Assembly: GCA_005116835.1 (NCBI GenBank)
Contig: SWDM01000016.1
Span: 186,001-250,000 of the forward strand
Source: Nitrospira sp.
Lineage (GTDB): Bacteria > Nitrospirota > Nitrospiria > Nitrospirales > Nitrospiraceae
Direction: 5' to 3'
Length of the DNA stretch: 64,000 nt
Part shown: in pieces, positions 9,948 through 56,144 of the stretch
Layout: each line of letters opens with the position of its first letter
Position numbering within the stretch: the first letter of the stretch is position 1
Position numbers and translations under genes: made by a program
Notes under the pieces: generated by a model
What the model was told of the DNA's origin: nothing
Seen by the model: only the letters and a program-made list of their open reading frames with translations
Databases searched by the model: none

Positions 9948-11579
9948 TCAATCAGGGACATACTGGCTCATCAGAGGATTGACCGATTTGGTGAAATCAG
10001 CCAATACCCTGTCCGCTTCATTTTCCTCATGCCCCGGCTGAACCGAAGCCGTTAATCGAATCAAGGCGCCGTCCGTCCGTTGCTTCGCCAGGGCGTCCCA
10101 GAAGAGAAAGAACTTCACAAGATACTCGTTTGCCAGCACCCGATCCCGCTGCTTGAACCAGTAGTAGACAATTTGCTTTGCGCCCGCCTTTTGAATCACC
10201 AATCGATTGACCTGCAACACCGTCGTTGCCGCATCGTTCGCCGGCACTTCCATCGTCCGCAAGGAGGTAATCTCCCATCCTCCGCCGGGAATGCAGGTTC
10301 GCGGTGAATGGGCCGACTGCCCTTTGCGCTGCGAACCATAATAGGCCACATAGAAGTTCACCGGAGCTCCGTCAGCCACGTGATAATCAGCCAGCAAATA
10401 GTCGTCGAATCGCAAGGTTTCGATATATTCCTTTTCCAACGGAAACGTGCTCCCCTGCCACTGTTGAACCTGCATGGGAAAATTGAGAAGCGCCTGTCGC
10501 TCCGGCACGATTTCATCACGGGAGATGAGGTACGGCGATGCGACGGCGAGGCACACCAACAGACCCACCGAGCAGAAGAATGGCGCCGGCGACGCTTCGG
10601 TAAGAGAAGAAGATCGAACCGCGCCCGGCTGGACGACGGTTTCAGAATCAGACGGCAGACGCAGCAGATCGGAAAAGGACTGTCGCTTATTGCCGGACCC
10701 TATTCTCGCCAGTCCCCACATCACGAGAGCGAGAATCGCCAGACTTATGAGGAAGATGACCCAGCCTTCGAAGAGGTGGAGAAATCCATCGGCAGCGCCT
10801 GCTCCGAAGTACTCGACCAGCACTCCGATGACGCCGATGCGGAAACCGTTTAAAACGATCGCGATCGGCATGCTGGACAAAAACACCACGGCGCGCTTCC
10901 ACATCGGCCCCTGAAACAGGTAGGCGCAGAGCAACGCCAGCGACATCAGGGGGAACAGGTATCGCAAGCCGCTGCAGGCCTCCACCACTTGCAATTGGAT
11001 CGGGCCGAGATCGATCACGTTCCCTTCACGGAAGGCGGTAATGCCGACGACTTGCAGGCACCCGACCCCCAAAGCCGAGGAGAGCAACTGTAGTTGGCCG
11101 GAAAGCCCCTGCAAGAGGAATTGCGGCAGCGGAATCATCGTGAGGAGGTACAGCAGCGGAAAACTCAACGCCCGAACGATTTGCCCTCCTAGAGTGGCCC
11201 AGCACAGGCCCACCAACACAAGCCAGAACGACAGCTGCAGGAGAGGGGCAAGGGTGCCCAGTTCACCCATAACGTATAATGCGAGACCCACCAGAACGAG
11301 CGACAGGCCCCACCAGGATCCCCGCGGCTCAAGCGCCCGAAGCTTGTCGCGCTTCATCCAGATCAAGAACAGCGAGATGAAGGGTACAAAGAAACCATGA
11401 CCATAATTTTCATCATCGACCCATATGCCGACCATGAGTGCAAGAGCGTCGTAGTAAATCACTCCCAACAATCCCGCGCAGAGAGCCGCGACGATCCACC
11501 AGATCCCGTTCCGGCTCCAGGCCGGCGCCACCGGAACGTCATCGACTGCGGACGACAAGGCCTTCGTATGCAAGCCCAT
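9948..11579 (-). CDS. Exosortase fused to an EpsI domain (XrtA/XrtD type)
   Basis: Membrane cysteine transpeptidase that recognises PEP-CTERM-like tails. The N-terminal 300 residues form about eight membrane helices carrying the catalytic triad: Cys202 (VVEACSGLRYL), Arg247 (NGFRIGV) and His268 (FLHLFEGW). From about residue 325 a single membrane segment leads into an EpsI-type domain with the signature RTCIPGGGWEI (about 427-437). The total length of 543 residues fits exosortase-EpsI fusions. The sorting tails found at 37-45 kb are of the VPLPA kind, which is described for XrtD, while the neighbourhood resembles XrtA loci, so the subclass is left open. The gene starts 2 bases after the WecG-like stop. 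Confidence 0.9.
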   Translation of the reverse strand: MGLHTKALSSAVDDVPVAPAWSRNGIWWIVAALCAGLLGVIYYDALALMVGIWVDDENYGHGFFVPFISLFLIWMKRDKLRALEPRGSWWGLSLVLVGLALYVMGELGTLAPLLQLSFWLVLVGLCWATLGGQIVRALSFPLLYLLTMIPLPQFLLQGLSGQLQLLSSALGVGCLQVVGITAFREGNVIDLGPIQLQVVEACSGLRYLFPLMSLALLCAYLFQGPMWKRAVVFLSSMPIAIVLNGFRIGVIGVLVEYFGAGAADGFLHLFEGWVIFLISLAILALVMWGLARIGSGNKRQSFSDLLRLPSDSETVVQPGAVRSSSLTEASPAPFFCSVGLLVCLAVASPYLISRDEIVPERQALLNFPMQVQQWQGSTFPLEKEYIETLRFDDYLLADYHVADGAPVNFYVAYYGSQRKGQSAHSPRTCIPGGGWEITSLRTMEVPANDAATTVLQVNRLVIQKAGAKQIVYYWFKQRDRVLANEYLVKFFLFWDALAKQRTDGALIRLTASVQPGHEENEADRVLADFTKSVNPLMSQYVPD

Positions 11580-14219: not shown

Positions 14220-14232
14220 GTTGGTCGATGTC

Positions 14233-18766: not shown

Positions 18767-19526
18767 TTAACCGGCCACCGCGCGTCACCTGCCGTTTGCC
18801 ATACCCAAGCGCCACACGCTCTACTTTCAACTTGCGGCTCCATGGAGCATCTTGACGCGCGGCCAGAAAGAAAAATAGCCGTTTCACTTTGATGCTGGCA
18901 CACCCTTCCAGCAGCGACTGCACCAGCGCGGGCCGCAGCGCGGGCAAGCCTTCGAACAACTCCGCCGCGTGAGTGAAGCTGGCCGACGTGTTCCCCACCA
19001 GACTCAGCACTTCCAAGATTGCCCGCTCCGGCGAAGACGCAGTCAGTGTCCAGTCGCGCACACGCGTCGGCAAGCGTGCCAGTCCCTCGCCCACTACGGC
19101 GGCATCGAAGAGCCGCTGACGATGGAAAACAAACTGCTGCGAGAGGGAAATGGCCAAAACCCAGGCCGGGAGACGTGTGAACCCTCTCCCATGGTTCCAG
19201 AGATGAATGCTCGACTCGCCGCCCAGCGGCAAGTAGTGAGCAAGTCCTTGCAGATTGAGCGCGGAGAGCCCACCCACATGGATAGGCTGTTGCGCCAACC
19301 GTTGGAGAGCTATCACCACCCCCTGCCAGTTAACAGGCGAGACCTGGCGGGAATAGGCGCCATGAGCCAGCGCGGTGAGCCAGCCGCTCGTCACATACTT
19401 ACGGACCAGTTGCGGTGAGATCCCTCGCTCCGATAGCCAGGCGCTCGGAACAGCCACCCCTTCAGGCAAGTCCTTGAGTAGACGATTTAGCAGCCGGTTC
19501 GGGATTGCCTTCTTTTGTATACCCAT
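18714..19526 (-). CDS. AbiEi-family antitoxin
   Basis: A 270-residue antitoxin with an N-terminal winged helix-turn-helix (VAVPSAWLSERGISPQLVRK, about 25-44, then YVTSGWLTALAHGAYSR) and the AbiEi core (HVGGLSALNLQGLAHYLPLG, about 103-122). It would repress the operon by binding inverted repeats upstream; suitable repeats are visible at 19584-19621. The ATG at 19526 has no strong ribosome site. The pair with AbiEii is typical in order and overlap. Confidence 0.83.
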   Translation of the reverse strand: MGIQKKAIPNRLLNRLLKDLPEGVAVPSAWLSERGISPQLVRKYVTSGWLTALAHGAYSRQVSPVNWQGVVIALQRLAQQPIHVGGLSALNLQGLAHYLPLGGESSIHLWNHGRGFTRLPAWVLAISLSQQFVFHRQRLFDAAVVGEGLARLPTRVRDWTLTASSPERAILEVLSLVGNTSASFTHAAELFEGLPALRPALVQSLLEGCASIKVKRLFFFLAARQDAPWSRKLKVERVALGYGKRQVTRGGRLNVRFSITVPEQFSASRR

Positions 19527-20567: not shown

Positions 20568-20764
20568 GATTCAGGCTGAAGGGATTCAGGCTGAAAACTG
20601 GTTGGTTTGGTTCATCTGGTTTCTTTGGTTCATTTTGTTGATCTTGTTCATTTCGTTCAACCAAATAAACGAAACAAACCAAATAAACAAGATAGACCAG
20701 ACCGTCTGACGGTCTCCAGAATCCTGCTGAATCAGCCTAAAACCCCTTCAGCCTGAACACCTGA
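20568..20764. repeat. 148-bp composite repeat (families A + B3), right flank of the DUF5615/DUF433 module
   Basis: The 148-base element at 20581-20728 is the direct copy of 19662-19809. It is preceded by one extra GGATTCAGGCTGAAG word and followed by an inverted family A word pair (CCTAAAACCCCTTCAGCC, up to 20764). The pair of direct repeats brackets the toxin-antitoxin genes with a period of 919 bases. Confidence 0.88.
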
Positions 20765-24191: not shown

Positions 24192-25400
24192 CTATCGCGA
24201 TCCAGGCTTCTGCTCACTAACCAATGCTACGGAGGAGACTCGGGAAAGAGGGTGGCACCCTCCAGACGCCAGCGTAAAGAGATCGCCCAGGCAGAGAACC
24301 AATCGTTCGCTTGTATAGAACCGCTCGAAGCGTTCTCGCGCATTTCGGCCCATACGTTCAACCTCTTTAGGATGGTCGAGGCACCAGAGAAGGCGATCGG
24401 CCAGATGTTGAGGATCGTTGGACCGCACTTCGAGCCCACATTCTCCTTCGATCACGGTATCCCTCAAGCAGCCTCGGTCCGTAAACAGCACCGGCAAGCC
24501 GGAAGCCATGGCCTCGAGCACGACGAGGGGCTGACCCTCTTGTTGTATGCCGGGAAACACAAACAGGTCTGCCGATGAGTAGATCGACCATTTGTGTTCG
24601 AGAGTGGAGACCGGTCCGGTGAAGACAACCTGCCCACTCAGTCCATGGCGCAGGATGAAGGATTCCGCCTCCCGTCGATCTTCTTCATTCAGCCAGGGAC
24701 CGGCTAGCATGAATTCGACGTCCTGCCTGATCTTCAATACCATCGGGATCGCAGCCAACAGAACCAGCGCGCCCTTCAACCGGCTCAAGGTGCTCAAATG
24801 TAAAATCCGATACCGGCGTGGTTTGTGTGACTCGTGTGCCGGCTTGTGGACAGCCGGCCAGTCGATTCCATTTGGCACAACGGCAACGCGATTAGAAGTA
24901 ATCAGACCATCGAAGAGCTGGCGAAACGACTCGCCAAGGACTGCCACATAGGACACACGCCGGAATACCATCCGTACATACATTCTCACCAGGAATGAAC
25001 GGCTCTCATACCAGGCTTTGAAATTCCCGCCGTGCAGATGCAGTACCACGTGAGCGCCAGCAATCCAGACCGGCAGCATCAAGAGACTGTCACGCAGGAA
25101 ACCGACGGTCGATTGGGAGATGGCAAGATATGCTACTGTCGGACGTTCTTGCCGCAATAACGATATTAAACTCCACCATTGTTTCAGAAAAAGCACGACG
25201 TCGTGCAAGTCCGGCTTGTCCACATGTTCGATGCCTCTTCGATCGGCCAGATCGACGTGCAAGAGATCGAACTTGGTCCCAAGTGACGATTCGAGGATGG
25301 CTTTCATGGCCACACTGACACCGTGGTACGGAGGTGGCGTCGGGCCGATGATCAGCACGGGTTGCTTATCAAGATGGTCTGGATTACTAGTGAAACGCAT
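24192..25400 (-). CDS. Glycosyltransferase family 4
   Basis: A 402-residue GT-B glycosyltransferase. It shows the N-terminal VLIIGPTPPPYHGVSVAMKA (about 15-34, the glycine-rich loop), VVLHLHGGNFKAWYESR (about 118), the hinge YRILHLSTLSRLKGALVLLA and the C-terminal donor site FPGIQQEGQPLVVLEAMASG (about 290-309). It overlaps the upstream acyltransferase gene by 14 bases, so the two are co-expressed. Sugar specificity is unknown. Confidence 0.87.
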   Translation of the reverse strand: MRFTSNPDHLDKQPVLIIGPTPPPYHGVSVAMKAILESSLGTKFDLLHVDLADRRGIEHVDKPDLHDVVLFLKQWWSLISLLRQERPTVAYLAISQSTVGFLRDSLLMLPVWIAGAHVVLHLHGGNFKAWYESRSFLVRMYVRMVFRRVSYVAVLGESFRQLFDGLITSNRVAVVPNGIDWPAVHKPAHESHKPRRYRILHLSTLSRLKGALVLLAAIPMVLKIRQDVEFMLAGPWLNEEDRREAESFILRHGLSGQVVFTGPVSTLEHKWSIYSSADLFVFPGIQQEGQPLVVLEAMASGLPVLFTDRGCLRDTVIEGECGLEVRSNDPQHLADRLLWCLDHPKEVERMGRNARERFERFYTSERLVLCLGDLFTLASGGCHPLSRVSSVALVSEQKPGSR

Positions 25401-26406
25401 AACCGTAAACCTTTTTGAATGCTTGATGCTCAGAGATAAGCCGATCCATCAGCCACACAATCGCGATGAGAATCACCAGAGACGTAGCCAGTGCCAGGGT
25501 AAAAGAGACCGTTATGGCCAACAAGGACATCAGCCACCACAGTCCCCATAGAATTCCCATCTGTAAGACATAACAAATAAGAGAATACCGCCCGAGCAGC
25601 CGTGACCATTCATCGATGTACGAATGCGGCCGACACCACCGATGGCTGATATAGAGCAGTGTGACTATGCTGACGACACCCAGCAGGTAGACAAAGAGAT
25701 TGTCCCGGGTAAATGCCGACAGGAAAAGCAGTGTGAAGTGAGTAGTAGCGCCAACCAGGCTATAAACCAGCAGAAGCGTCAATCTGACAGTCGTTCGTGT
25801 CATCCGTGCGATCATGGCGGCATCGAGCCAAAATCCAAGTGTCATGCCTGCTAAACCACAAAGTATCAGCCAAAGGTTTGGAGGAACACTGATGGGAACA
25901 ATACTGGCAATGGAAGTTCCGATGAGCACAAACCATGTAAGCATTCCCGTCTTATGCTGAAGGTAGAGAAAAAACGGAGCACAAATGAGGAAATAGCCTA
26001 TTCCCAGTAACACCCCGAAGGAGGTGGCCTCCCCGCCACCATAGAGCATGGTGCGAACGATCGTCGGAATGTCGAAGTGACCTGTAAATCCAGGATGCAA
26101 CCTGAGTCCTGCAATTCCGACATTTAACAGCGTATAAATCACGATGAGTTTCGCTCCCCGAAACATCAGGTGTTTTCGAGCTCCGGATATGTCTGATTGC
26201 ACCCTGTTCCCGTATCGCACAGCCACAAGGTACCCGCTCAAGAAAACCCAACTGCCGCTCACAAAATTGAGTAAGACTTCATCGAGTATCCATAGGCCAT
26301 GACTATCCGCCATGAAAAGGCTACCGGTGTGAAAAGTCAACATCAGGACCACCAGAAGGCCCTTGACGAAATCCAGACTAAGATCGCGCTTGCTGTCGAC
26401 TATCAT
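25387..26406 (-). CDS. Acyltransferase family 3 membrane protein
   Basis: A 339-residue integral membrane protein with about ten hydrophobic helices. It starts RDLSLDFVKGLLVVLMLTFH (about 7-26), the typical acyltransferase_3 opening (R-x-x-x-L-D-x-x-K-G) with the conserved His after helix 1. Members O-acetylate or O-succinylate polysaccharides; an OpgC-like role is possible. The ATG has GAGGAA immediately upstream. Confidence 0.82.
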   Translation of the reverse strand: MIVDSKRDLSLDFVKGLLVVLMLTFHTGSLFMADSHGLWILDEVLLNFVSGSWVFLSGYLVAVRYGNRVQSDISGARKHLMFRGAKLIVIYTLLNVGIAGLRLHPGFTGHFDIPTIVRTMLYGGGEATSFGVLLGIGYFLICAPFFLYLQHKTGMLTWFVLIGTSIASIVPISVPPNLWLILCGLAGMTLGFWLDAAMIARMTRTTVRLTLLLVYSLVGATTHFTLLFLSAFTRDNLFVYLLGVVSIVTLLYISHRWCRPHSYIDEWSRLLGRYSLICYVLQMGILWGLWWLMSLLAITVSFTLALATSLVILIAIVWLMDRLISEHQAFKKVYGYAFH

Positions 26407-27307: not shown

Positions 27308-28852
27308 TCAACTCGATTGAACAACTCGTCGCCTCAATTGTAAGAGCATAGTTCTATCTCCTTCAGGGAGGCCAAACATCAGCAGTAATGCGAGATACGT
27401 AATTACAAACAATCCCACTAGAACCACTGCCATGGAAGCGGGGAGGACCACTCTGACCATCAAGATCAGCGCAAGGGACAGGAGCCCGGATACCAGCGGC
27501 TTTATAATCGTGGAGTCGTACGGCCAAATGTTAAGGACATGATGGACCTGAACAATTCTCAAAATTGTCGTGAGCACAAGACTCGCACTGGCGGCAATCG
27601 CTGCGCCGACAATCCCGTAGGAAGGGATCAAGATCAGATAGAGCCCAATTTGGGTTCCAGAAGCCACGACACTGTTCCACATGACGAGTTTCGAGTGCCC
27701 AGACCATAACAACATGCCGTTACTGCACCCAGTCACGGAGTTGGCGAATTGTCCAACCGTAAGAATGACGAGACAGACCCAGCCCGATGCGAATTGTTTT
27801 CCGAACAAATCCATCACATCCGTTGCAAACACCGCCATGATAATGCAGAGAGGAAGCGTGACCATCATCGTCCAACGTAACACTGTGCCGGCAAGCGAAC
27901 GAACGTCCGCTCGATTGTTCATCGAGATGCTTTCCGAGAGAAACGGGGTCGCGACCGATTCCAATGTGCCCAGCACCACAGCCATGATGGCGGCTGTCTG
28001 GAACGCGGCGCTGTAGATGCCGACCTGTGCGACGGGGACCCAATAACCGAGGAAGAACACATCGGATCTCGTGGCAATGCTGTTTAAAAATAGTCCACCG
28101 AGAAGCGGTAATGAATACGTGATGACACCGCTATAATACTTATTCGAAAAAAATGGCACTTTCACCTTGAGCCAAAAGTGCCGTAGCGGAAACAGCGCCA
28201 AAACTGCCGTGAGAAGAAGTGCGACCGGAAGGGCCACTACAGCCGACGTCAGACCCCAGCCTACCCAGATGAATCCCATCGTGATTGCGAACTTCATAAT
28301 CGGTTCGCAGAGATACTTGACGAATGTCCGCCAGCGAACCTCTCCAAAGGCTTGCAACGCCGAAATGGCGACCGTGGAAACAACGAACAATGGAATCGAT
28401 AAGGCGAAAAGCTGTAGCACTGTAGTTGCATCGGGGTGGTGCAAGAACTGAGTGGCGAGCATGTCGGAACTCAGCAACAAGACGGCGGCAAATATGACAC
28501 CGAGTCCGGATGACAGAACAAGGGCCGCTCGTATGATACCCCCGATACCGGCGGCATCACTCTGGGCACGCAGCGCCGGGACGAATCGAAGTACGGCTGT
28601 ATCGAGGCCGGCCAGGGCAATCACGGACAGCAGGTTGAAGCAACCGAGCCCGATCGCATACAGCCCGAATTGCTCCGGCCCAAGCAGCCTGGCAAGTACA
28701 ATGGCATAGACATAGTTAAGACCAAGCCCCAGGAAAGTCCCGACAAAGAAGAGCGCTGAACCGCTTGCGATGCGGGTCAGCGTCTGATCGGAAGCCAGCT
28801 GTCCGGATGCTATGTCGATGCTTGGCATACCGATGCCGCGATCAATTGCCAT
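27308..28852 (-). CDS. Wzx-type polysaccharide flippase
   Basis: Membrane transporter of the polysaccharide transporter/MOP superfamily, 514 residues and about 12-14 helices, expected to flip undecaprenyl-linked oligosaccharide across the inner membrane. It opens ASGSALFFVGTFLGLGLNYV (about 30-49), and each half ends in charged loops typical of Wzx. The Wzy-like gene lies one gene upstream, which supports a Wzx/Wzy-dependent pathway. It starts 6 bases after the GH-like gene's stop. Confidence 0.87.
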   Translation of the reverse strand: MAIDRGIGMPSIDIASGQLASDQTLTRIASGSALFFVGTFLGLGLNYVYAIVLARLLGPEQFGLYAIGLGCFNLLSVIALAGLDTAVLRFVPALRAQSDAAGIGGIIRAALVLSSGLGVIFAAVLLLSSDMLATQFLHHPDATTVLQLFALSIPLFVVSTVAISALQAFGEVRWRTFVKYLCEPIMKFAITMGFIWVGWGLTSAVVALPVALLLTAVLALFPLRHFWLKVKVPFFSNKYYSGVITYSLPLLGGLFLNSIATRSDVFFLGYWVPVAQVGIYSAAFQTAAIMAVVLGTLESVATPFLSESISMNNRADVRSLAGTVLRWTMMVTLPLCIIMAVFATDVMDLFGKQFASGWVCLVILTVGQFANSVTGCSNGMLLWSGHSKLVMWNSVVASGTQIGLYLILIPSYGIVGAAIAASASLVLTTILRIVQVHHVLNIWPYDSTIIKPLVSGLLSLALILMVRVVLPASMAVVLVGLFVITYLALLLMFGLPEGDRTMLLQLRRRVVQSS

Positions 28853-28858
28853 AATTAG

Positions 28859-29974
28859 TTACTTCACTCCTAGACCCGTTGGAGGGGGGAGAGGCTTAAA
28901 TGGACCGGCTTTGACGGCTGCAATCTGTTCATCCGATAGCCACCGATACTCATAAACACCGACTCCCGTCATCGGCCAACGCTGCTGAATCATCCTGATC
29001 GTGTCCGCGAGCCATTTCCCATCACGGGAGAAATGTGCTTGGGAGGGCGAGTTCTCCCCGTGTGAAACATTTGAGATAACCACTGTCAGTGCGTCGGGGT
29101 TCCTCAACAGACCGCGGATCTTATCTGTCAGTGCGACATCGATATCCAGGTAGTAGGCCATCCGGCAAAGTACATCCACCAGCCCCATGTTCTCCCAGCC
29201 AATGCTGTTATGGCCTTGCTCTGTGCTTTCGTAGAATGGGATCACATCGGCGCTGATGACAATGTTCGGCTTGATCGCCCTGACTCGCTGTGAAATTTCC
29301 AGCACCATCGCGGTGACGTCAGATTCCTGATACTCCACCAGCGTCGGCACTCGTCCGAACGTTAGTTTGAATTGGGCCGTATCTAGTAACAGATTGCGGT
29401 CAAAGCGCCTCCTATAGTCTGCTTGACAGAAATCACTCGTGCACAACCCGATTGCTCTCACATAATCGAGATTAATCCCATCTACGTCATACCGGGTGAC
29501 CACCTCTGCGATGAGATTTGCCACCATATGTCGAAACTCCGGCTTGTGAACGTCGAAGGCACCATTCGGAGTTCCGGAGGGGGCGAATTGCGGCATGAAG
29601 TCCCCTTCCCGCAAGGTGAGAGTAAACCAGGGATGTACCTCGATCCCCATCTCATGAGCCCGGTCGATGAGATATTTCAGCGGATCATAACCAAGCTTGG
29701 GATAGGCTTTGAGCCAGCTATCCCATTCGGCATAGGCCGAGGGCCATGTGGTTCCTCTCCCGTGCCAGACAATCGGACCGAATGCATTAAACCCTGCGAG
29801 TCTAATTCTAGCTAGCAGCGCATCCGTCGCCTCTTTACTCGTCCAACTGAGCACATCTTCCTCAAAGATGATCCGCTTTCCAGCAAAGGTCTTTGACGCT
29901 GCGGCACTATGTTCCGAAGGAACAATAAGTCCAACCACCAGCAGCCATGCAAACAAGAATGGACGGAACGGCAT
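28859..29974 (-). CDS. Secreted glycoside-hydrolase-like (GHL10/DUF187-type) protein
   Basis: A 371-residue protein with a signal peptide (hydrophobic 7-19, cleavage near SAAA at about 26) and a TIM-barrel-like domain of the glycosyl-hydrolase-like 10 family. Visible are NAFGPIVWHGRGTTWPS (about 62-78), MGIEVHPWFTLTLREGD (about 109) and RYDVDGINLDYVRAIG (about 159-174), where Asp residues are candidate catalytic acids. A hydrolase inside a Wzx/Wzy cluster may trim or release the polymer; the substrate is unknown. It is tightly linked to its neighbours (6-7 bases). Confidence 0.78.
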   Translation of the reverse strand: MPFRPFLFAWLLVVGLIVPSEHSAAASKTFAGKRIIFEEDVLSWTSKEATDALLARIRLAGFNAFGPIVWHGRGTTWPSAYAEWDSWLKAYPKLGYDPLKYLIDRAHEMGIEVHPWFTLTLREGDFMPQFAPSGTPNGAFDVHKPEFRHMVANLIAEVVTRYDVDGINLDYVRAIGLCTSDFCQADYRRRFDRNLLLDTAQFKLTFGRVPTLVEYQESDVTAMVLEISQRVRAIKPNIVISADVIPFYESTEQGHNSIGWENMGLVDVLCRMAYYLDIDVALTDKIRGLLRNPDALTVVISNVSHGENSPSQAHFSRDGKWLADTIRMIQQRWPMTGVGVYEYRWLSDEQIAAVKAGPFKPLPPPTGLGVK

Positions 29975-29981
29975 GCTTGCC

Positions 29982-31343
29982 TCACCTTAAGTCTGATAGA
30001 AGTGGATACCGGTGCTGAACTTTTGTCTTAATGAGCGAAGCTTCAAGGGGAAGGTCTTCCCGATCAACAACTTCTTCCTTCACTGGTTGCAGGCTCGCTG
30101 CATCGGCGCGCATTCTCAAGCTCATGCCGATCAATCCCCAGACAAGCCACTGTTCCGCTGGGTAGGCGCTTGGGACGAGCCCAACCGCATCTATCAGCCA
30201 CATGAGATACACCATCAAGGCTGCCACGGCCATTTCGTCCGCCTTGGCGAGTAGATTCCGACCGATCCTGACACCGATGACGATCAACAATGACAGGTAA
30301 ATCACCAGGCCCACGACCCCTCCGTGAAACAGCATTTGAAGAAAATCGTTGTGCGCGCCTGTAGCGATTATCCCGCTGCCGAACAGTTGGCTCATCGCGG
30401 GAAGACGTTCCCACTCAGTCATCATCTCCACCCACCCGAACCAGCGTCCCTGAAACGTCATCTTCCCATCGACCTTCCCTGAAACGAATCCAAGTTCCTT
30501 GTGGAAGAGTGTCCCGATCTGATCAATGAGATTGTCGGCAAAATACGTCGTGATCAGCAAGCCCGCAACGGCGAGCACAGCGAGTACCGCGAACTGACGC
30601 CGGAGGATTGTCCAGCAGAGCACCCAGATGGCGAAGGTCAGCATTGCGGCTTTGCTGTACACCCTCACCATAACAACCGTGGAGAGGGCCAAATAAGACA
30701 GCGTCATGACCTTCAGCGGAATATTCCATGCTTTGACGTACAAAGCCGAATAGAGCAGCAATCCCAGAATGGTTTGAATCGCATAGGTTCGCATGTTGAC
30801 GCCGTCGTGCCAGATGCCAATGTTCCGCACAAGCCCTTCTGCTTGTGCCTGCTGCCACTGGAATCCTGTCATAGCCTGATAGAGTCCGAGGCTCATTGGA
30901 AACAGACCACCCAGGATCAAAGCCCAAAGGAACCATTTAAACCGGTTACCCTCGCGAAAGTATGCTTGAATGAAGTAAAATCCGATGATCCCATTGATGT
31001 ATCGAAAGAACACGCTGGCGCCAGACTTGGAGTCACCACCATAAGCGATGATGAATGAAAAAATCAGGATATAGGTCGAATATGCGAGCCACAAACCTTT
31101 TAGGGGCATCCGGGCAAGCGAGTTCTCTCGTTTACTGATCGCCATGTGCCCTAATAAGATGATTGGGATGAGACCGGAATATACTTCAGGAACGCGAAGC
31201 CCCAGGAACAGGAAATGTTCCCAGGACGCATCGATGAGCGGTTTGATGATGAACACGATCACCATCCCGACTGCAGGGTTGGCAATAAGCGCTAGTATGG
31301 AAATGAAGCCCAAACCCATTGCGACAGGAAGGATTGAATCCAT
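29982..31343 (-). CDS. Wzy-type O-antigen/EPS polymerase or ligase
   Basis: A 453-residue polytopic membrane protein with about 11-12 helices. It carries a large central loop and the signature of the O-antigen ligase/Wzy family near residue 325: GSGIIATGAHNDFLQMLFHG (the H-N-x-x-L-Q motif). In a locus with Wzx it is best read as the polymerase of the repeat unit. The cytoplasmic tail after about 420 is charged. An 86-base gap separates it from the FabG-like gene upstream. Confidence 0.82.
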   Translation of the reverse strand: MDSILPVAMGLGFISILALIANPAVGMVIVFIIKPLIDASWEHFLFLGLRVPEVYSGLIPIILLGHMAISKRENSLARMPLKGLWLAYSTYILIFSFIIAYGGDSKSGASVFFRYINGIIGFYFIQAYFREGNRFKWFLWALILGGLFPMSLGLYQAMTGFQWQQAQAEGLVRNIGIWHDGVNMRTYAIQTILGLLLYSALYVKAWNIPLKVMTLSYLALSTVVMVRVYSKAAMLTFAIWVLCWTILRRQFAVLAVLAVAGLLITTYFADNLIDQIGTLFHKELGFVSGKVDGKMTFQGRWFGWVEMMTEWERLPAMSQLFGSGIIATGAHNDFLQMLFHGGVVGLVIYLSLLIVIGVRIGRNLLAKADEMAVAALMVYLMWLIDAVGLVPSAYPAEQWLVWGLIGMSLRMRADAASLQPVKEEVVDREDLPLEASLIKTKVQHRYPLLSDLR

Positions 31344-31429: not shown

Positions 31430-32161
31430 TCAGCACGTGATTCCCCCATCGATCGTCAGTACCTGCCCGGTGATGAAGCCTGCTGCGGGCGACAGCAGAA
31501 AATGGACGGCGCCGACGACATCATCGGGTGTTCCCAACCGGCCGAGCGGCGTCCGCCGGACAATCTGATTGCGCTGGGTGTCGCCAAGCCCATGCGTCAT
31601 CTCGGTCTCGAGATAGCCGGGGGCGATGGAGTTCACCCGGATGTTCCGCGGGCCTAGTTCGCGGGCCAAACCTCTGGTCATGCCGTCCAGGCCCGCCTTC
31701 GTCGCGGAGTAGGCGGCGAGACCTGCGTAGCCGCGCAATCCGATGATCGACGAAATGTTGATGATGCTCCCGCGTGAGCGGACGACCATCTGTCTCACCA
31801 CCAGGCGTGTCAGCAGCAGTGTGCCCGTGAGATTCACGGCAATTACCTGTTCGATCTGACCAGGCTGCATGGTCGCGAGCACTCCGTCGGTTGCGATGCC
31901 GGCATTGTTGATGAGCACGTCAATCGGCCCGCAGTCCTTTTCCACGCGCTTGACCACCGAGCCGAGCGAGGCTTGGTCGGACATGTCGCCCTCGAAAAAA
32001 CTGAACCTCTCGCCGTGTTTCTCCTTCAGCCGCTCGATTGCCTCTCCCGGGCGCCGGCTGAAGGTCGCCACCCTGTAACCATGTTCCAGGAGACTTGTCA
32101 CCATGGCCAACCCGAGCCCACGGCTGCCTCCGCTGATGAGCGCGACCCCGTTGCTTTTCAC
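31430..32161 (-). CDS. FabG-like 3-oxoacyl-ACP reductase (SDR)
   Basis: Short-chain dehydrogenase of 243 residues. It shows the NADP-binding SGGSRGLGLAM (about 9-19), the NNAG motif (about 84-87), catalytic Ser in SIINISSIIG (about 135), YSATK (Tyr/Lys, about 151-155) and the C-terminal GQVLTIDGGITC typical of FabG. It would reduce an acyl chain carried on the ACP encoded two genes upstream. It overlaps the acyl-ligase gene by 4 bases. The surrounding genes suggest a dedicated acyl modification rather than housekeeping fatty-acid synthesis. Confidence 0.88.
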   Translation of the reverse strand: MKSNGVALISGGSRGLGLAMVTSLLEHGYRVATFSRRPGEAIERLKEKHGERFSFFEGDMSDQASLGSVVKRVEKDCGPIDVLINNAGIATDGVLATMQPGQIEQVIAVNLTGTLLLTRLVVRQMVVRSRGSIINISSIIGLRGYAGLAAYSATKAGLDGMTRGLARELGPRNIRVNSIAPGYLETEMTHGLGDTQRNQIVRRTPLGRLGTPDDVVGAVHFLLSPAAGFITGQVLTIDGGITC

Positions 32162-33519
32162 TCCGCCTCCGACCGCACGACCTTCATCGCGCCGTTCTGA
32201 GCAATCGATTTGACCACACGAAGCAGGCGCGGCACTTCGTGCTGAGCAAGCCGACCGCGCGCAATCCGATTAATTTCTCCTCGCACCGCATGCTCATCGC
32301 TCCCGCGTGCCAACACAATATCCGCCGCGACGAGCTGCCCGACGAGCGAACTGCTTTTGCCGTATACCCGCACATCACCGACTCCCGTGGCCTCGCGCAA
32401 CACCGTTTCTACCGTTGAGGGCATCACCTTTCGCCCTCCTACATTAATGACGTCGGTCTTGCGTCCTTGGAACAGCACACGGTCTCCATGACGCTCAACG
32501 AGATCACCTGTTGCCACCCATCCATCTAGAGCGGCAGCGGTGAGCTGACCGGAATCCCCTGCCGCCCGAGGGTCGTACCCGAGCATGGCATTGTGGGAAC
32601 GAGCCAGGAGTTCGCTCTCGACGATGCGCAGTTCAATCCCCTTCTCTTGTGATTGATCCAGCCATTCGGCGGGAAAGCCCTCACGCTTGTCTGTCACCGA
32701 AAAAAGCCGTCCCAGTTCAGTAGAGGCATAAATGTGCACGAGCCTGGTCTGCGGGAACAGCCCGGATAACTGATCGAGCAACCCTTGCGTGACCGCCTCG
32801 CCACCCATCGTGATCTGTTCGAGTCTGCATGCGCACAGTTCTTCATAAGGCGCTAACAACAAGAGCTGCCGCCAGAAGGTCGGCGTACCAGACGCATGCG
32901 TGACCGAAGCTGCGCGCATCGTTTTCGCGACGGTTGTTGGATCAAGTGAGGACGGCGTCACCAGAGTCGACCAATTGAGCAGCGCCTGCAACATCACCTG
33001 CGTACCCGCATACAAATTGAGCGGATAGGCGCACATCCAGCGATTCCGTTCGTACCGAGGGTCCCGCCTGACCGGCGAGGCCAGCGTGGCCCAGGTATGA
33101 TTCGCCGCCTTGGGGCGGCCGGTGGTTCCCGATGTCAGCATGGTCACGATTCCCTCACTGTGAGAATCGATATCGACAGGCACTGCCGAAGCACTATGGA
33201 TCTGCGGAGAGTCAATCAGATTCCACAGGATTACGTTCCATTGCAGCCGGTCCGCCAGCTCCATAATCTCCCTTGGACTGCGGCGTCCAGCGAGAAACAC
33301 ATGGCAACGCAATGCTTCGAGCGCTGCTGCCGCCGGAACGAACTCCGTGGGTTCGTTGAGCGCGAGTCCGACGCGGAGCCCCGCAAGCGATCGCCACCTG
33401 ACCGAAAGCTCATGTACACGGGTGGCAAGTCCCGCATAGGTCACCACCAGATCGCCGGCGATCAGCGCCGCAGTATCTCGACGATCTGCCGGCACAGCCT
33501 GAAGATGTTCAGCCAACAT
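32158..33519 (-). CDS. AMP-dependent acyl ligase (adenylate-forming enzyme)
   Basis: A 453-residue ANL-superfamily enzyme, a little short for the family. It shows the P-loop VTMLTSGTTGRPKAANHT (about 125-142), IYASTELGRLF (the A5-like motif, about 263), WVATGDLVERHGDRV (about 333-347) and GRKTDVINVGGRKVMPSTVE (about 352-371, hinge plus Gly motif). It would activate a fatty or hydroxy acid and load it onto the adjacent ACP. Exosortase-linked EPS loci often carry an acyl-ligase/ACP pair of unknown purpose. It is coupled to FabG by overlap. Confidence 0.85.
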   Translation of the reverse strand: MLAEHLQAVPADRRDTAALIAGDLVVTYAGLATRVHELSVRWRSLAGLRVGLALNEPTEFVPAAAALEALRCHVFLAGRRSPREIMELADRLQWNVILWNLIDSPQIHSASAVPVDIDSHSEGIVTMLTSGTTGRPKAANHTWATLASPVRRDPRYERNRWMCAYPLNLYAGTQVMLQALLNWSTLVTPSSLDPTTVAKTMRAASVTHASGTPTFWRQLLLLAPYEELCACRLEQITMGGEAVTQGLLDQLSGLFPQTRLVHIYASTELGRLFSVTDKREGFPAEWLDQSQEKGIELRIVESELLARSHNAMLGYDPRAAGDSGQLTAAALDGWVATGDLVERHGDRVLFQGRKTDVINVGGRKVMPSTVETVLREATGVGDVRVYGKSSSLVGQLVAADIVLARGSDEHAVRGEINRIARGRLAQHEVPRLLRVVKSIAQNGAMKVVRSEAE

Positions 33520-33537
33520 TGCCGGATTCCCCAGAAA

Positions 33538-33795
33538 TTACACTGCCGCCTTCACGTAGAGATCGATCAGGTCGGAGACTGTCTTCAACCTGCCGATCGT
33601 ACCTTCGGCAAACGGATCGATACCCGTCTCCAACTCAATCCTGACGACCACGGCTGCCCAGTCGAGTGAGTCCAAGCCGAGGCTGGAATCGACCGGTGAA
33701 TCGAGTTCAAGCCCCTGCGCGGTCAGGTCTTTGGCGACCAGCGTTTCACCGATGATCTGAAGAATGGCTCGCGTGAGGTCGTCTTTGGATGGCAT
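33538..33795 (-). CDS. Acyl carrier protein
   Basis: An 85-residue carrier protein with the phosphopantetheine site GLDSLDW (Ser43) and an acidic helix II, as in ACPs. The ATG at 33795 is chosen because AGGGG lies 6 bases upstream and the usual ACP length results; the frame is open further up into the deacetylase gene. It lies between the acyl ligase (18 bases) and the deacetylase (14 bases), so it presumably carries the chain activated by the ligase and reduced by FabG. Confidence 0.88.
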   Translation of the reverse strand: MPSKDDLTRAILQIIGETLVAKDLTAQGLELDSPVDSSLGLDSLDWAAVVVRIELETGIDPFAEGTIGRLKTVSDLIDLYVKAAV

Positions 33796-33809
33796 GTTTT
33801 CCCCTTCTG

Positions 33810-34739
33810 TCAGCACGCGGCCAACGACGCCCGGGCTTCTCTCTCCGGACAGGCCTGCCGCCCGGCATACTGCGACATGGTCATGAAACGCACCCCCTCG
33901 AAACCTGCCATGTATCTCCAAAGACTGAGATTCCAGTCGAGCTTGGACGCGGAGTCACCGCGATACAGATACCGGCGAAACCGCAGCCCATGAACCTTGA
34001 GGTTGCTGCTGTAATCCTTCGCTCCCTCGATCTCCTCGGCAAATTCATAGGGATGAAACAGGTACACGATCGGCTTTCCAGTTCGCCGTGATTCTGAATA
34101 GAGCGCGCGGAAGAGCGCCTTCATGAACCGCAGCCCGAAGACATATAACGTGCTGGAGATGAACGGGATTGCGAGGGCCGACACAGGGACTTCCAGTATC
34201 TCAAGATTGCCTCGTCCATAGGCATCGTCTGCGCTCGGATGATACGGAAGTCGGGGGGCGCGGAGCCACCCAGGATGAACAAGATTCGAGCTGATCACAT
34301 CGAAACGTTGGGAACAGACCGTTGAATCTGCGAGGTAGCCCATGCGGGACAGGATCTTGAGCGTCGGGCCGGAGACCTTTACGCGAGGGCCCCGGAACGA
34401 CAGGATCTCGCAGTCGCCCAGCTTGCTGAGCACACCCGTCGCCTTTTCCAGATACTCTTCCTGCATGCTCAACGGCATCGAATCATACTCTTCTTCGTTG
34501 CCGTGCGTGAGCCCATGGCAGCCGATCTCGTGTCCCGCCTCCCGCAAGATGCGGGGATAGATGGGAACCTGTTCCGCCTCCCGGGCGACGAAAAAGAACG
34601 TCAGGCCTCCGGCAAGTTCACGACCGGCCTGCAACATCTGGTCGAAAGCCCGACTCTTATCCTGGTCGCGGTGATGGGTGGAGTAGTCCACATCTCCCGT
34701 CAGGAGGACTGGTACGGTGCTCTCGCTTTGGGTTCTCAT
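33810..34739 (-). CDS. NodB-type polysaccharide deacetylase
   Basis: A 309-residue deacetylase. It shows VPVLLTGDVDYSTHHRDQD (about 9-27, the metal-binding Asp region), EIGCHGLTHGNEEEY (about 73-87, the H-x3-H metal ligands) and LSFRGPRVKVSGPTL (about 114-128, the RxP motif). It probably removes N-acetyl groups from the polymer or a precursor. The ATG at 34739 has GGAG 7 bases upstream. The reading frame stays open for 50 codons further upstream only because a family B repeat there has no stops. Confidence 0.85.
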   Translation of the reverse strand: MRTQSESTVPVLLTGDVDYSTHHRDQDKSRAFDQMLQAGRELAGGLTFFFVAREAEQVPIYPRILREAGHEIGCHGLTHGNEEEYDSMPLSMQEEYLEKATGVLSKLGDCEILSFRGPRVKVSGPTLKILSRMGYLADSTVCSQRFDVISSNLVHPGWLRAPRLPYHPSADDAYGRGNLEILEVPVSALAIPFISSTLYVFGLRFMKALFRALYSESRRTGKPIVYLFHPYEFAEEIEGAKDYSSNLKVHGLRFRRYLYRGDSASKLDWNLSLWRYMAGFEGVRFMTMSQYAGRQACPEREARASLAAC

Positions 34740-34756
34740 CGATGATCTCCAGACTA

Positions 34757-34851
34757 ATTCGTTTATTTGGTTTGTTTTGTTTATTTGGTTCATCTGGTTA
34801 GTTTCATTCAACCAAACAAACCAAATAGACCAAATGAACCAAACAAACCAG
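34757..34851. repeat. Family B hairpin, copy B4, inside an operon gap
   Basis: Nine-base units TCGTTTATT, TGGTTTGTT, TTGTTTATT, TGGTTCATC, TGGTTAGTT, then the core TCATTCAACC and the complementary arm. It fills the 121-base space between the GNAT-like stop (34861) and the deacetylase start (34739), so it lies within a polycistronic unit and immediately 3' of a stop codon. Confidence 0.88.
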
Positions 34852-34860
34852 TTTCGTCTG

Positions 34861-36006
34861 TTAAAACGTGTCGTGGTCGCCGAAACCAAATCGCCAGGAT
34901 CTGAGATCCTGAGGAAGGCACAACGGATCCATTCCTCGATCCGTCCACATCAGCAACGAGTACTTTTCCGGCGACTTCAGATAGGCGCGGCTTTTGACCA
35001 GACGAGCGTCATCGGACGAGAGGCCGTCGAGTAACAACACACCCTCGCACCCGCTCGCCAACGCTAGACGCTCGACCCCGGCCAGCGCCATCTTGGCCGC
35101 GCGATCCGAATTTGGTTCATGGATGAGATCCATGATGACAGCCGCCCGAATCCCTTCAGAACGCTCGACCATCCGGACAATCGCCGCAGCAAGCAACCTG
35201 TCTTGATGCCGTACTGCGAGCAACCGATAATCTGAACCCTCTCCCGCATAGCGCGCCCGAAGCAACTCGACGTTCCAAGTCTGGGTTGTCTGTCCGACAT
35301 GGGCTTGTTCGTAGAGGCGGGCAAGGTCGGCAATTTCGTCGGAACCCCACGGAGCTTCGCTCACCTCCCACGGCGCACCAGCGTTAAGCCCTTGAAAACG
35401 GATACCCATTCCGACCACCGCATCCGGAACGCTGCAAAGAGCCCGAAGGAATCGTTGGTCTCCGTCACGGCGGATGAACTTTTTGTACTTGGCAAATAAC
35501 AGAGCCGGCCTCAGCGGTTTGGCTAAAACAGTCATGTCGCCGATCTTTGTGAATCCAATCTTCAGATGCGCTTGGGCGATTTGCTGCCTACGCACTGCCG
35601 CATAGAGTCGGTGAATCCCTATCTCTCGGAGTCCGACGTACATCGCCGAGATCAGCCGTGGGTAGATGAAGAAGCTTCGATACGACGGATCGATGAATAA
35701 GCCAGTCCAGTAGGCAATCCGGAGTTCTTCATCTCCGCTACGTAGTTGCCGCTCTTGCACACTGGTCATTCCAACCGCTCGATCTCCATCGAACGCAAGC
35801 CACACGGCGCGGGCCGGGTTTGTGAGATCAGGCCCCTTGGCGTCAGACGATGTCGCCTCCTCTGCTTGCCGGCGCACGGCGAACAGCAATCGCGCCGCAT
35901 CTTCATCGAACTGCGTTGCTCTTCTGATCACGATGCGATTGCGACCGGCCTGCAGGACACCGATCCCAGCATGTTCATGCAGTAATTCCCCAGAGATGCT
36001 ACTCAT
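34861..36006 (-). CDS. GNAT-family acetyltransferase
   Basis: A 381-residue protein. Residues about 25-165 show the GNAT pattern RIAYWTGLFIDPSYRSFFIY and HLKIGFTKIGDMTVL (acetyl-CoA-binding and final strand). The second half may hold a degenerate second GNAT unit (ARLYEQAHVG, DYRLLAVRHQDRLLAAAIV). It is the first gene of the second EPS operon, with the shared upstream element at 36075-36145. It may N- or O-acetylate a sugar nucleotide; the substrate is unknown. Confidence 0.72.
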   Translation of the reverse strand: MSSISGELLHEHAGIGVLQAGRNRIVIRRATQFDEDAARLLFAVRRQAEEATSSDAKGPDLTNPARAVWLAFDGDRAVGMTSVQERQLRSGDEELRIAYWTGLFIDPSYRSFFIYPRLISAMYVGLREIGIHRLYAAVRRQQIAQAHLKIGFTKIGDMTVLAKPLRPALLFAKYKKFIRRDGDQRFLRALCSVPDAVVGMGIRFQGLNAGAPWEVSEAPWGSDEIADLARLYEQAHVGQTTQTWNVELLRARYAGEGSDYRLLAVRHQDRLLAAAIVRMVERSEGIRAAVIMDLIHEPNSDRAAKMALAGVERLALASGCEGVLLLDGLSSDDARLVKSRAYLKSPEKYSLLMWTDRGMDPLCLPQDLRSWRFGFGDHDTF

Positions 36007-36173: not shown

Positions 36174-36328
36174 AGGGATACAGACTGAAGGGGTTCAGGC
36201 TGAAGGTTGTAGGCCAATGACAAGATTGGTCTGTCTGGTCTATTCGGTCTATCTGGTCTGATCAGTATGCCTTGTATGTTTGGTTGAACGAAAGCAAGCA
36301 GATAGGCCAAACAGACCAGATGAACCAG
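36174..36328. repeat. Family A word plus family B hairpin (copy B5) beside vapC
   Basis: GGGATACAGACTGAAGGGG, then GTTCAGGCTGAAGG (36174-36206), then a B element from about 36226 with units TGGTCTATT, CGGTCTATC, TGGTCTGAT, core TGGTTGAACGAA and a complementary arm ending GATGAACCAG next to the vapC stop codon. Here the core is in the reverse orientation (GGTTGAACG). Confidence 0.82.
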
Positions 36329-41651: not shown

Positions 41652-41773
41652 CAGGTCTGTCTGGTTTATTTGGTTTGTCTCTCTTGTTTGGTTGATCTGG
41701 TTGATTTGGTTCAGCTGATTAGTTTCGTTCGACCCAAATATCAAACAAACTAAACAAACCGAATAAACCAATT
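41652..41773. repeat. Family B hairpin, copy B7 (longest)
   Basis: Units TGGTTTATT, TGGTTTGTC, TCTCTTGTT, TGGTTGATC, TGGTTGATT, TGGTTCAGC, TGATTAGTT, core TCGTTCGACC, then complementary units AAACAAACT, AAACAAACC, GAATAAACC: a strict 9-base period over about 120 bases. The rest of the gap 41522-41858 carries no gene. Confidence 0.88.
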
Positions 41774-41858: not shown

Positions 41859-42506
41859 TTAGGCGGGAGTGAGTTTTTTGCGCAAGATGCCTATGAGACC
41901 GACGAGTCCGCTGCCGAACAAGAGCGCTGCCGCCGGCAACGGCACCGGTGCCGCCGCCACCTGCGCCGTCCCCTGCAGCGAAAACGTTCCGCTGGTCAGG
42001 AATGGAATCCCTGTGAACGCATGTGTCCAGGAGAGATTGAACGCGTTGGTCGCCTGATTGAACGACCCGATCGCGATTCCACCGATGTTCAGCGAGCCGA
42101 ATGTGGCAGGAGTCATCCAACTTCCCCACGACGTGCTGCTCAAGCCAGCGAAGAGGGAAGAGAGATCGACTGTCATGGTATTGCCCGTCGTCGTCCCAGA
42201 AGGCGGTAGGAGATTCAGTACGGGCTGACCGGAACTTGAAAAAATGGAAAACGCGAGATGAGAACCCAACTGAACCGGTTGGAAAATGTTGGGCGTCGGT
42301 TGAAACTGGCCCATAATCAACTGGCCCGGCTGATTGAACGTGCCAGCAAGAGTACCCAAGACCGGACCGAAATTCAAACTCACCGATTCACTCGTGATGT
42401 TAAGCTGCGTCACGGTCGCCGCCTGCGCAGGCAAAGCTGCGAGGCAGAGAGCCAGCCCGGCACAGAGGCCCATCGCGCTCCGTTTTATTGTTGATCTGTT
42501 TCTCAT
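41859..42506 (-). CDS. VPLPA-CTERM secreted protein, paralogue of the 39432-40100 gene
   Basis: A 215-residue exported protein. It has a signal peptide ending PAQAA (about 29), then a beta-rich body with PGQLIMGQFQPTP, TVDLSSLF, NIGGIAIGSFN and GTFSLQG, matching the protein at 39432-40100. The tail APVPLPAAALLFGSGLVGLI is followed by GILRKK, a textbook VPLPA sorting signal for exosortase. The function of the body is unknown. AGGAG lies 11 bases before the ATG. Confidence 0.87.
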   Translation of the reverse strand: MRNRSTIKRSAMGLCAGLALCLAALPAQAATVTQLNITSESVSLNFGPVLGTLAGTFNQPGQLIMGQFQPTPNIFQPVQLGSHLAFSIFSSSGQPVLNLLPPSGTTTGNTMTVDLSSLFAGLSSTSWGSWMTPATFGSLNIGGIAIGSFNQATNAFNLSWTHAFTGIPFLTSGTFSLQGTAQVAAAPVPLPAAALLFGSGLVGLIGILRKKLTPA

Positions 42507-44984: not shown

Positions 44985-45083
44985 GCTGGTTGGTCTGGTC
45001 TATTTGGTTTGTTTAGTTGATTTGGTTCATTTAGTTTGTCTGGTTCAACCAAATAAACCAGATAAACCAGACAAACCAAAGAA
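44985..45083. repeat. Family B hairpin, copy B8
   Basis: Units CTGGTTGGTC, TGGTCTATT, TGGTTTGTT, TAGTTGATT, TGGTTCATT, TAGTTTGTC, core TGGTTCAACC, then complementary units. It ends 9 bases from the stop codon of the TonB-like gene. Confidence 0.88.
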
Positions 45084-55059: not shown

Positions 55060-55153
55060 CTGGTTCATTTGGTCTATTTGGTTTGTTTTGTGTATTTGGT
55101 TGAACGAAACTAACCAGATAAACCAGATCAACCAAATAAACAAAAGAAACCAG
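55060..55153. repeat. Family B hairpin, copy B9
   Basis: Units TGGTTCATT, TGGTCTATT, TGGTTTGTT, TTGTGTATT, core TGGTTGAACGAA, then complementary units ending AAAGAAACCAG. It starts 15 bases after the stop codon of the GspC-like gene. Confidence 0.88.
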
Positions 55154-56054: not shown

Positions 56055-56144
56055 GTTATTTGGTTTGTTTGGTTTGTCTCGTTTATTTGGTTGAACCAAA
56101 CTAACCAGATAAACCAAACAAACAAAATGAACCAAATAAACCAG
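56055..56144. repeat. Family B hairpin, copy B10
   Basis: Units TGGTTTGTT, TGGTTTGTC, TCGTTTATT, core TGGTTGAACCAA, then complementary units AACCAGATAAACCAAAC and AATGAACC, ending AATAAACCAG. It starts about 12 bases after the stop codon of the porin-like gene. Confidence 0.88.

Follow-up and report, generated by a model that had tools for sequence, protein, structure and literature searches.

A mupirocin-like trio of acyl carrier protein, ligase and reductase genes in a Nitrospira polysaccharide locus, with a possible role in glycan acylation

The 64,000-nucleotide stretch of Nitrospira sp. DNA considered here, which is called the window, carries adjacent genes for a stand-alone acyl carrier protein (ACP), an adenylate-forming ligase and a short-chain dehydrogenase/reductase (SDR) within a polysaccharide locus. 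This ACP–ligase–SDR trio is a conserved unit, and two of its members are related to MacpD and MupS of the mupirocin pathway. In the reading that we favour, at slightly better than even odds (a probability of about 0.53), the trio makes a short omega-hydroxyacyl-ACP, either 3-hydroxypropanoyl-ACP or 4-hydroxybutanoyl-ACP, for a surface polysaccharide and acts as a priming cassette of the mupirocin type. The enzyme set is of a known kind and is found in a new setting.

The module consists of five genes, all on the minus strand. The interval 31430–34739 given in the initial annotation is exact and runs from the SDR through the start of the deacetylase gene, with the gene for a GNAT-family protein lying beside it:

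34861..36006, minus strand: GNAT-family protein of 381 amino acids (aa), proposed acyltransferase (PF00583, 5.9e-5, residues 57–146)
33810..34739, minus strand: NodB-type polysaccharide deacetylase, 309 aa (PF01522, 3.9e-8; active-site motifs)
33538..33795, minus strand: stand-alone ACP, 85 aa, with an xDPF motif (PF00550, 4.2e-5)
32158..33519, minus strand: 453-aa adenylate-forming ligase, proposed to load the ACP in the manner of MupQ (PF00501, 2.6e-22; PF13193, 1.2e-6)
31430..32161, minus strand: MupS-type SDR, given as FabG in the annotation (PF13561, 1.6e-62)

The ligase and SDR genes overlap by 4 nucleotides (nt), and the gaps are 18 nt between ACP and ligase and 14 nt between deacetylase and ACP. 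Pfam matches, motifs and the shared strand bear out the earlier proposal that the trio is joined to a deacetylase and a GNAT protein in a polysaccharide locus, and the deacetylase superfamily is also found beside the trios of two further genomes (handles G027 and G064).

The proposed mechanism begins with the ligase, which would adenylate the free carboxylate of malonyl-CoA or succinyl-CoA and load the dicarboxylic acyl-CoA onto the dedicated ACP. Walker and colleagues (2020) reportedly described a bis-thioester of CoA and ACP, as well as thiomarinol enzymes that use succinyl-CoA. In the next step, NAD(P)H-dependent reduction by the SDR would turn the CoA-thioester end into an alcohol and yield 3-hydroxypropanoyl-ACP or 4-hydroxybutanoyl-ACP, with no ketosynthase involved. 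In the cytosol, the NodB-type deacetylase would free the amino group of an N-acetylated sugar, and the GNAT protein would move the hydroxyacyl group to the freed amine, after which a flippase would export the unit. In the window, the acceptor is presumably an N-acetylhexosamine deacetylated by the neighbouring enzyme.

Kinship of the SDR and ACP with the mupirocin priming cassette

In passages of PMC10098928, MupQ, MupS and MacpD are described as converting malonyl-CoA to 3-hydroxypropanoyl-ACP without condensation, and the thiomarinol primer is given as 4-hydroxybutanoyl. The mupirocin cassette and its thiomarinol counterpart have the same three kinds of part as the window trio, namely an adenylating ligase, an SDR and a discrete ACP, and their primer needs no ketosynthase. 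In the window, too, the ligase, SDR and ACP are adjacent and form a set that would need none. The setting differs: a GNAT protein and a deacetylase, and not a polyketide synthase (PKS), accompany the window trio, which lies among polysaccharide genes. In addition, the window ACP stops where its match to MacpD stops, and thus lacks the C-terminal extension.

The SDR contains the motifs GGSRGLG, NNAG and YSATK. Its top match among 177,635 distinct PDB sequences is MupS (4yxf; 7.4e-66, 225 bits), with the runner-up at 1.5e-52 and 182 bits. In an IQ-TREE phylogeny of 94 SDRs, 82 cassette SDRs share one side of a branch (100/98) with MupS and with two further SDRs, which come from PKS-linked cassettes (loci L116 and L123), and the opposite side (100/97) holds five canonical FabGs, including that of E. 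coli and the window genome's own FabG of fatty acid synthesis (FAS). The 82 comprise 78 of 79 SDRs found directly downstream of a related ligase (at least 190 aa in the tblastn piece), together with those of the window, G064, G099 and Azospirillum; the SDR of L027, which is split in two pieces, was left out. Arg36 and Arg203 are common to MupS and all 82 cassette SDRs and occur in none of the five FabGs. Similarly, Leu148 is present in 76 of the 82 (the two PKS-linked SDRs have valine), and all five FabGs have glutamine at this position. When BLAST scores were compared with those of the best of the five FabGs, MupS was higher for 76 of 82. By PDB ranking, tree and the two arginines, these sequence comparisons place the window SDR in the MupS clade. 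The notion of a canonical FabG awaiting a ketosynthase of the host is opposed by both tree and PDB ranking; by the features of a type II FAS enzyme, the SDR stands apart from the five FabGs and has no adjoining ketosynthase.

The serine of the ACP lies in the motif LGLDSLDW. MacpD (6tg5) is the top PDB match of the window ACP as a single sequence, and a profile built from 20 cassette ACPs finds MacpD at 3.9e-14, with the runner-up at 4.3e-8. A DPF motif follows the serine helix in all 20 profile ACPs and in MacpD; by cluster, it is present in 25 of 25 and 26 of 26 ACPs. The match in both searches and the shared motif class the window protein as a discrete ACP of the MacpD kind. Among three PF00550 matches in the window genome, the trio ACP is the sole one that is not beside a ketosynthase. 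The SDR and ACP searches, independent of each other, each led to a member of the same known three-member cassette, which favours a cassette of the mupirocin type.

The ligase carries the motifs TSGTTGRPK, YASTE, TGD and GRKTDVINVGGRK, plus a C-terminal lysine. In 80 gene calls of related ligases, A3 was found in 71, A5 in 80, A7 in 61 and a loose A8 in 48, the patterns being narrow and some calls partial. The window protein falls below the NCBIfam cut-off for the 25 best families among the matches listed. The initial annotation had pointed to the exosortase-linked acyl-ligase families, and this comparison came out negative: the score against TIGR03098 is 76.2 bits, far under the cut-off of 592.35, and identity with this XrtA-linked ligase was rejected. 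TIGR03098, the exosortase A-linked ligase, is likewise an adenylating ligase of an exosortase polysaccharide locus, whereas the window exosortase is of the XrtD type.

The PKS-linked cassettes lie on plasmids of Bradyrhizobium (L116, 9674–18241) and Burkholderia stagnalis (L123, 8631–17411). Their SDRs are 50–51% identical to the window SDR and are the sister or nearest kin of MupS in the tree. Unlike the window, both have the order ligase–SDR–ACP with the ACP last, and the gene that follows is a large type I PKS with ketosynthase, acyltransferase, dehydratase, ketoreductase, ACP and thioesterase domains. The Bradyrhizobium cassette has a homologous ligase (33.5% in the match to the window ligase) and an ACP with the DPF motif.

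Related trios and their glycan setting

A first ligase scan of genome contigs gave 12 stretches, none of which was confirmed. At E ≤ 1e-20, the ligase is found in 8 of 147 genomes of the family; there were nine matches, and the one in G140 (a frame of 1047 aa) was left out of the analysis. The order ACP–ligase–SDR is seen in G000, G027, G064 and G099. In G027, which belongs to the same family as the window genome (3.94 Mb), the trio has a deacetylase, a methyltransferase, a GHL10 protein and a flippase as neighbours. The G027 contig (C297) is identical to a public contig of a Nitrospira metagenome-assembled genome (L027), and this one locus is counted both in the family set and in the set of 80 loci described below. 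In G064, the trio is adjoined by a polysaccharide deacetylase and by a protein of no recognised family, and in G280 by a flippase. In G099 (L014, 12868–19519, and L015), an Antibiotic_NAT-type N-acyltransferase lies directly downstream of the trio, and the segment has genes from a single cluster (291 aa, resembling transposases on inspection) on either side, as a mobile island would.

In G124 (two loci), in G059 and apparently in G079, an ACP-like gene is followed by the SDR and then by the ligase, and these loci (L017, L018, L019 and L020) make up a second type of trio. Their ACP-like genes carry a DS motif and gave no PF00550 match where tested (L017 and L018). The variant-order SDRs that were placed in the tree, two in number (L018 and L020), fall outside the MupS-type group. 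In L018 and L020, YdjC-type deacetylases lie close to the trio.

A scan with an alignment of five ligases gave 123 loci, of which 80 were kept; these related loci are not independent of one another, and the counts that follow are not counts of independent events. An SDR lies directly downstream of the ligase in 79 of the 80. An ACP lies directly upstream in 76, as judged by hidden Markov models trained on ACPs from these loci themselves. The remaining four are L043 (ACP on the other strand), L050 (which starts at a contig edge), and L059 and L072 (no match). A crude motif screen finds the upstream ACP in only 49 of 80, because the actinobacterial ACPs read RSL and not DSL. The loci bear 14 phylum labels: Acidobacteriota, Actinomycetota, Balneolota, Chlorobiota, Chloroflexota, Gemmatimonadota, Ignavibacteriota, Myxococcota, Nitrospirota, Planctomycetota, Pseudomonadota, Thermodesulfobacteriota, Verrucomicrobiota and Candidatus Zixiibacteriota. 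As the gene arrangement recurs in related loci, it is not due to chance.

The window deacetylase has the motifs GDVD, HGLTH, RGP and LFHP and, by eye, no signal peptide; its score against TIGR03006 (46.6 bits) is below the cut-off. A deacetylase that is 79% identical adjoins the trio of G027, and the polysaccharide deacetylase of G064 (PF01522, 7.4e-15) also adjoins its trio. As a fixed part of the cassette the deacetylase was rejected, with a NodB match by tblastn in 2 of 80 loci and Polysacc_deac_1 in 3 of 76 directly upstream genes. The same applies to the window-type GNAT protein, which is found in only 2 of 147 family genomes in total, one instance being a 60% identical fragment that adjoins the deacetylase at the contig edge in G027. 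The window GNAT protein perhaps holds two GNAT-like domains. Its AlphaFold2 model is poor (mean pLDDT 48), and the top Foldseek matches, to which low weight is given, are GNAT enzymes. The model is flawed because the underlying alignment mixed in proteins of an L005-type family without detectable kinship. This family, of approximately 370 aa, lies beside the trio in G064 (L005, 30–1145), two acidobacterial loci and one Chloroflexota locus (L028, 387–1547; L029, 330–1427; L078, 8257–9390). Its members share 32–52% mutual identity, have no convincing Pfam match and are a candidate transferase; grouping them with the window GNAT protein was rejected, there being no detectable kinship (best E 0.9).

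Pfam was used to classify the genes on either side of the trio. Among 76 directly upstream genes (from 76 of the 80 loci; 77 picked, with L035 left out), Acetyltransf_3 (GNAT) accounts for 14, Acetyltransf_8 for 11 (these two sets may overlap) and Hexapep for 10. The 79 directly downstream genes (79 of the 80 loci) include eight Hexapep and four Acetyltransf_1 proteins. The control pool was made up of 70 outer genes from the locus ends out of 103 eligible (71 picked, with one of L081 left out); its 25 commonest families include glycosyltransferases and neither GNAT nor Hexapep. A Fisher test of upstream genes against controls, which sets a lower bound of 24/76 against an assumed ceiling of 4/70, gave p = 4.8e-5 for these related loci. 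The hexapeptide-cluster genes lie on the ligase strand in 12 of 13 cases, and NeuB, a nonulosonic acid synthase, is present in 29 of 80 loci, 22 of them actinobacterial. GNAT and hexapeptide transferases as a rule carry short acyl groups. The 4-hydroxybutanoyl group is known as an amide on the amino sugar Fuc3N (passages of PMC3210612), on Qui3N (the title of a work cited in PMC7281560) and on pseudaminic acid (passages of PMC9912281). Taken with the acyltransferase and NeuB neighbours, these amides are the reason that the cassette fits an acyl donor for the N-acylation of sugars.

Weighing the alternatives

The initial annotation had remarked on the lack of a ketosynthase near the module, and this holds. 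The window and the 48 kb past its end contain no PF00109 match. The genome has four such matches: two strong ones on other contigs (C12 and C15), both of which adjoin an ACP of their own, and a weak partial pair (21–22 bits) on the window's contig, at least 48 kb past the window end. It had also supposed that the substrate of the reductase comes from a ketosynthase elsewhere. This is disfavoured, as the SDR and ACP are of the MupS and MacpD kind, for which the chemistry described in passages of PMC10098928 is free of condensation. In the related loci, within the flanks covered, queries with β-ketoacyl-ACP synthase III (KAS III), FabF and PKS gave a match in 1 of 80. A 3-hydroxypropanoyl-ACP or 4-hydroxybutanoyl-ACP product is proposed because the mupirocin-type chemistry is ketosynthase-free, ketosynthase queries matched so few of the loci within those flanks and the trio ACP has no ketosynthase beside it.

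Nod-factor synthesis (NodA, NodB, NodC, NodF and NodE) follows the same logic, in which an amino sugar is deacetylated and then re-acylated from an ACP, and the window deacetylase resembles NodB by PF01522 and motifs at the superfamily level only. From this likeness a fatty chain on a Nod-like lipo-oligosaccharide had been drawn. Here, kinship of the SDR and ACP with MupS and MacpD makes a short hydroxyacyl product likelier, so that a short acyl group is expected in place of that of the Nod factor. The lipo-oligosaccharide was rejected, as no elongation enzymes were seen, no NodA match was found among 20 window proteins scanned with Pfam (a GNAT protein is in its place), and the SDR and ACP indicate short-chain priming.

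Several observations count against a mupirocin-type cassette for glycans. For the SDR, a canonical FabG outscores MupS for 4 of 82 cassette proteins and ties for 2, the tree contains only five canonical FabGs, and general databases name the protein a 3-oxoacyl-ACP reductase (NCBIfam NF009466, barely above cut-off). The single-sequence match of the ACP to MacpD is weak (1.9e-5), and the actinobacterial cassette ACPs lack the DPF motif (0 of 21). The proposed MupQ role of the ligase is argued by analogy, from gene position and from the ligase of the PKS-linked cassette. Similarly, adjacency and the poor model suggest that the GNAT protein is perhaps the transferase, and the family without a Pfam match or detectable kinship to it occupies the same position in G064 and the acidobacterial loci. 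At 21 of 22 loci the main GNAT neighbour cluster lies opposite to the ligase strand, as does the NeuB cluster at 14 of 21, so that they are neighbours and not operon partners; most of them come from Actinobacteria. Only 52 of 80 loci are at least 15 kb long, so a ketosynthase farther off would be missed. Finally, the Azospirillum trio is flanked by genes for pseudaminic acid synthase and for flagellin, and a KAS III gene follows the cassette, which may equally fit ketoacyl reduction or chain extension.

It is unlikely that the SDR carries out ordinary FabG chemistry, in which a 3-ketoacyl-ACP (acetoacetyl-ACP from FabH, or acetoacetate loaded by the ligase) is reduced to 3-hydroxybutanoyl-ACP for a sugar. 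The precedent is the viosamine island of Pseudomonas syringae (vioS, vioR, acp, vioB), in which an ACP and a reductase-like SDR provide hydroxybutanoyl for N-acylation of an amino sugar. Passages of PMC3927599 attribute the 3-hydroxybutanoyl group of modified viosamine to VioS (a KAS III), VioR and the ACP, and report that the sugar is missing from a vioR mutant. The likeness is one of gene content, and it is incomplete: the island has a KAS III but lacks a ligase, and in the window it is the reverse. The NCBIfam label of the SDR as a FabG subfamily is consistent with this chemistry, as is the KAS III that adjoins the SDR in the Azospirillum cassettes; it shows that primer extension or ketoacyl chemistry may occur in some cassettes. 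Against it, the ligase would be superfluous in such a scheme, a KAS III by the reductase and ACP is not found in the window, ketosynthase queries (KAS III included) match just 1 of 80 loci, and the SDR groups with MupS away from the five FabGs.

We also doubt a reading in which the ligase charges the ACP with a different free acid, be it a hydroxy, an amino or a longer fatty acid, and the SDR acts on a sugar or on that acid, to give an unusual N- or O-acyl product that is possibly long and lipid-like. The substrates of such ligases are unreadable from sequence, and relatives in the PDB act on acids as far apart as succinylbenzoate and fatty acids. Passages of PMC7874193 report Aeromonas group II polar-flagellin islands (orf1-3, luxE, luxC) with an ACP, a 3-oxoacyl-ACP reductase and an AMP-dependent synthetase in a glycan locus with pse genes, and a liposugar is suggested there. 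The order listed, ACP–reductase–synthetase, resembles that of the Nitrospiraceae variants L018–L020, and no LuxE or LuxC was seen at the window locus. The kinship of SDR and ACP with MupS and MacpD, the lack of elongation genes nearby and the transferases recognisable by related trios, which are of GNAT and hexapeptide types, all speak against this reading.

Least probable by far is that the trio serves a secondary metabolite or other pathway and is merely located among polysaccharide genes: homologous trios precede PKS genes on the Bradyrhizobium and Burkholderia plasmids, as in mupirocin, but no PKS match lies near the window trio, a PKS query matched none of the 80 loci within the flanks covered, glycan genes surround the window trio, and a deacetylase, a GHL10 protein and a flippase accompany the G027 trio.

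The surrounding locus and what the cassette would mean

Judged from its gene content, the window region is an exosortase polysaccharide locus of the XrtD type. Downstream of the SDR, the order is Wzy-like protein, GHL10 protein and Wzx flippase. The other features are:

29982..31343, minus strand: multi-pass membrane protein, Wzy/O-antigen-ligase-like by eye (sequence reading; no Pfam or NCBIfam match)
28859..29974, minus strand: GHL10 glycosyl-hydrolase-like protein (PF02638, 3.8e-25; 68% homologue near the G027 trio)
27308..28852, minus strand: Wzx-type flippase (PF01943, 3.8e-26; homologues beside the G027 and G280 trios)
25387..26406, minus strand: possible acyltransferase_3 membrane protein, weak (PF01757, E 0.00095, 18.8 bits, cut-off 31)
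9948..11579, minus strand: XrtD-type exosortase fused to EpsI, marker of a polysaccharide locus (TIGR04152, 550 bits, cut-off 400)

The gene that had been read as an acyltransferase_3 downstream of the module matches that family only weakly, below the cut-off. Further polysaccharide genes in the window encode XrtA-like chain-length, export and TPR proteins, a WecB epimerase, a WecG/TagA-type transferase and GT4 enzymes. Near the exosortase (12306–16383) are a heparinase II/III-like protein and a fused zinc-alcohol-dehydrogenase/GFO-IDH-MocA protein, and an AbiEi/AbiEii type IV toxin–antitoxin pair (PF08843, PF11459) lies within the polysaccharide region at 17816–19526. A possible PEP-CTERM-type secreted protein at 41859–42506 is a candidate exosortase substrate, with a weak PepA-like match below the cut-off. 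The window also contains dispersed repeats with a 9-base period (TTGGTTTRT-like), at 34756–34853 and about nine other sites (16641, 19742, 20607–20700, 36226–36328, 39356, 41652–41771, 44986–45079, 55060–55153 and 56060–56144), with 39 matches against none in 100 shuffles. Several are facing pairs that could fold into long hairpins; in the spacer between the GNAT and deacetylase genes, the arms are 44 nt long and 77% complementary.

In the open-licence PMC literature searched, as far as its text goes, no genes were named for the 4-hydroxybutanoyl group, and no paper found joins the antibiotic cassette to the ACP, reductase and synthetase genes of the Aeromonas flagellar islands. We therefore put forward, tentatively and at somewhat less than even odds, a broader proposal: a widespread ketosynthase-free cassette, present in at least 14 phyla, may make omega-hydroxyacyl-ACP (3-hydroxypropanoyl or 4-hydroxybutanoyl) for the acylation of surface glycans and be the genetic source, so far missing, of 4-hydroxybutanoyl amino sugars and nonulosonic acids, with the mupirocin and thiomarinol cassettes as a side branch. 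If this is true, the three-gene signature would predict a defined glycan decoration in the 123 loci and beyond, including loci with NeuB, and would link the priming chemistry of antibiotics to the sugars of the cell surface.

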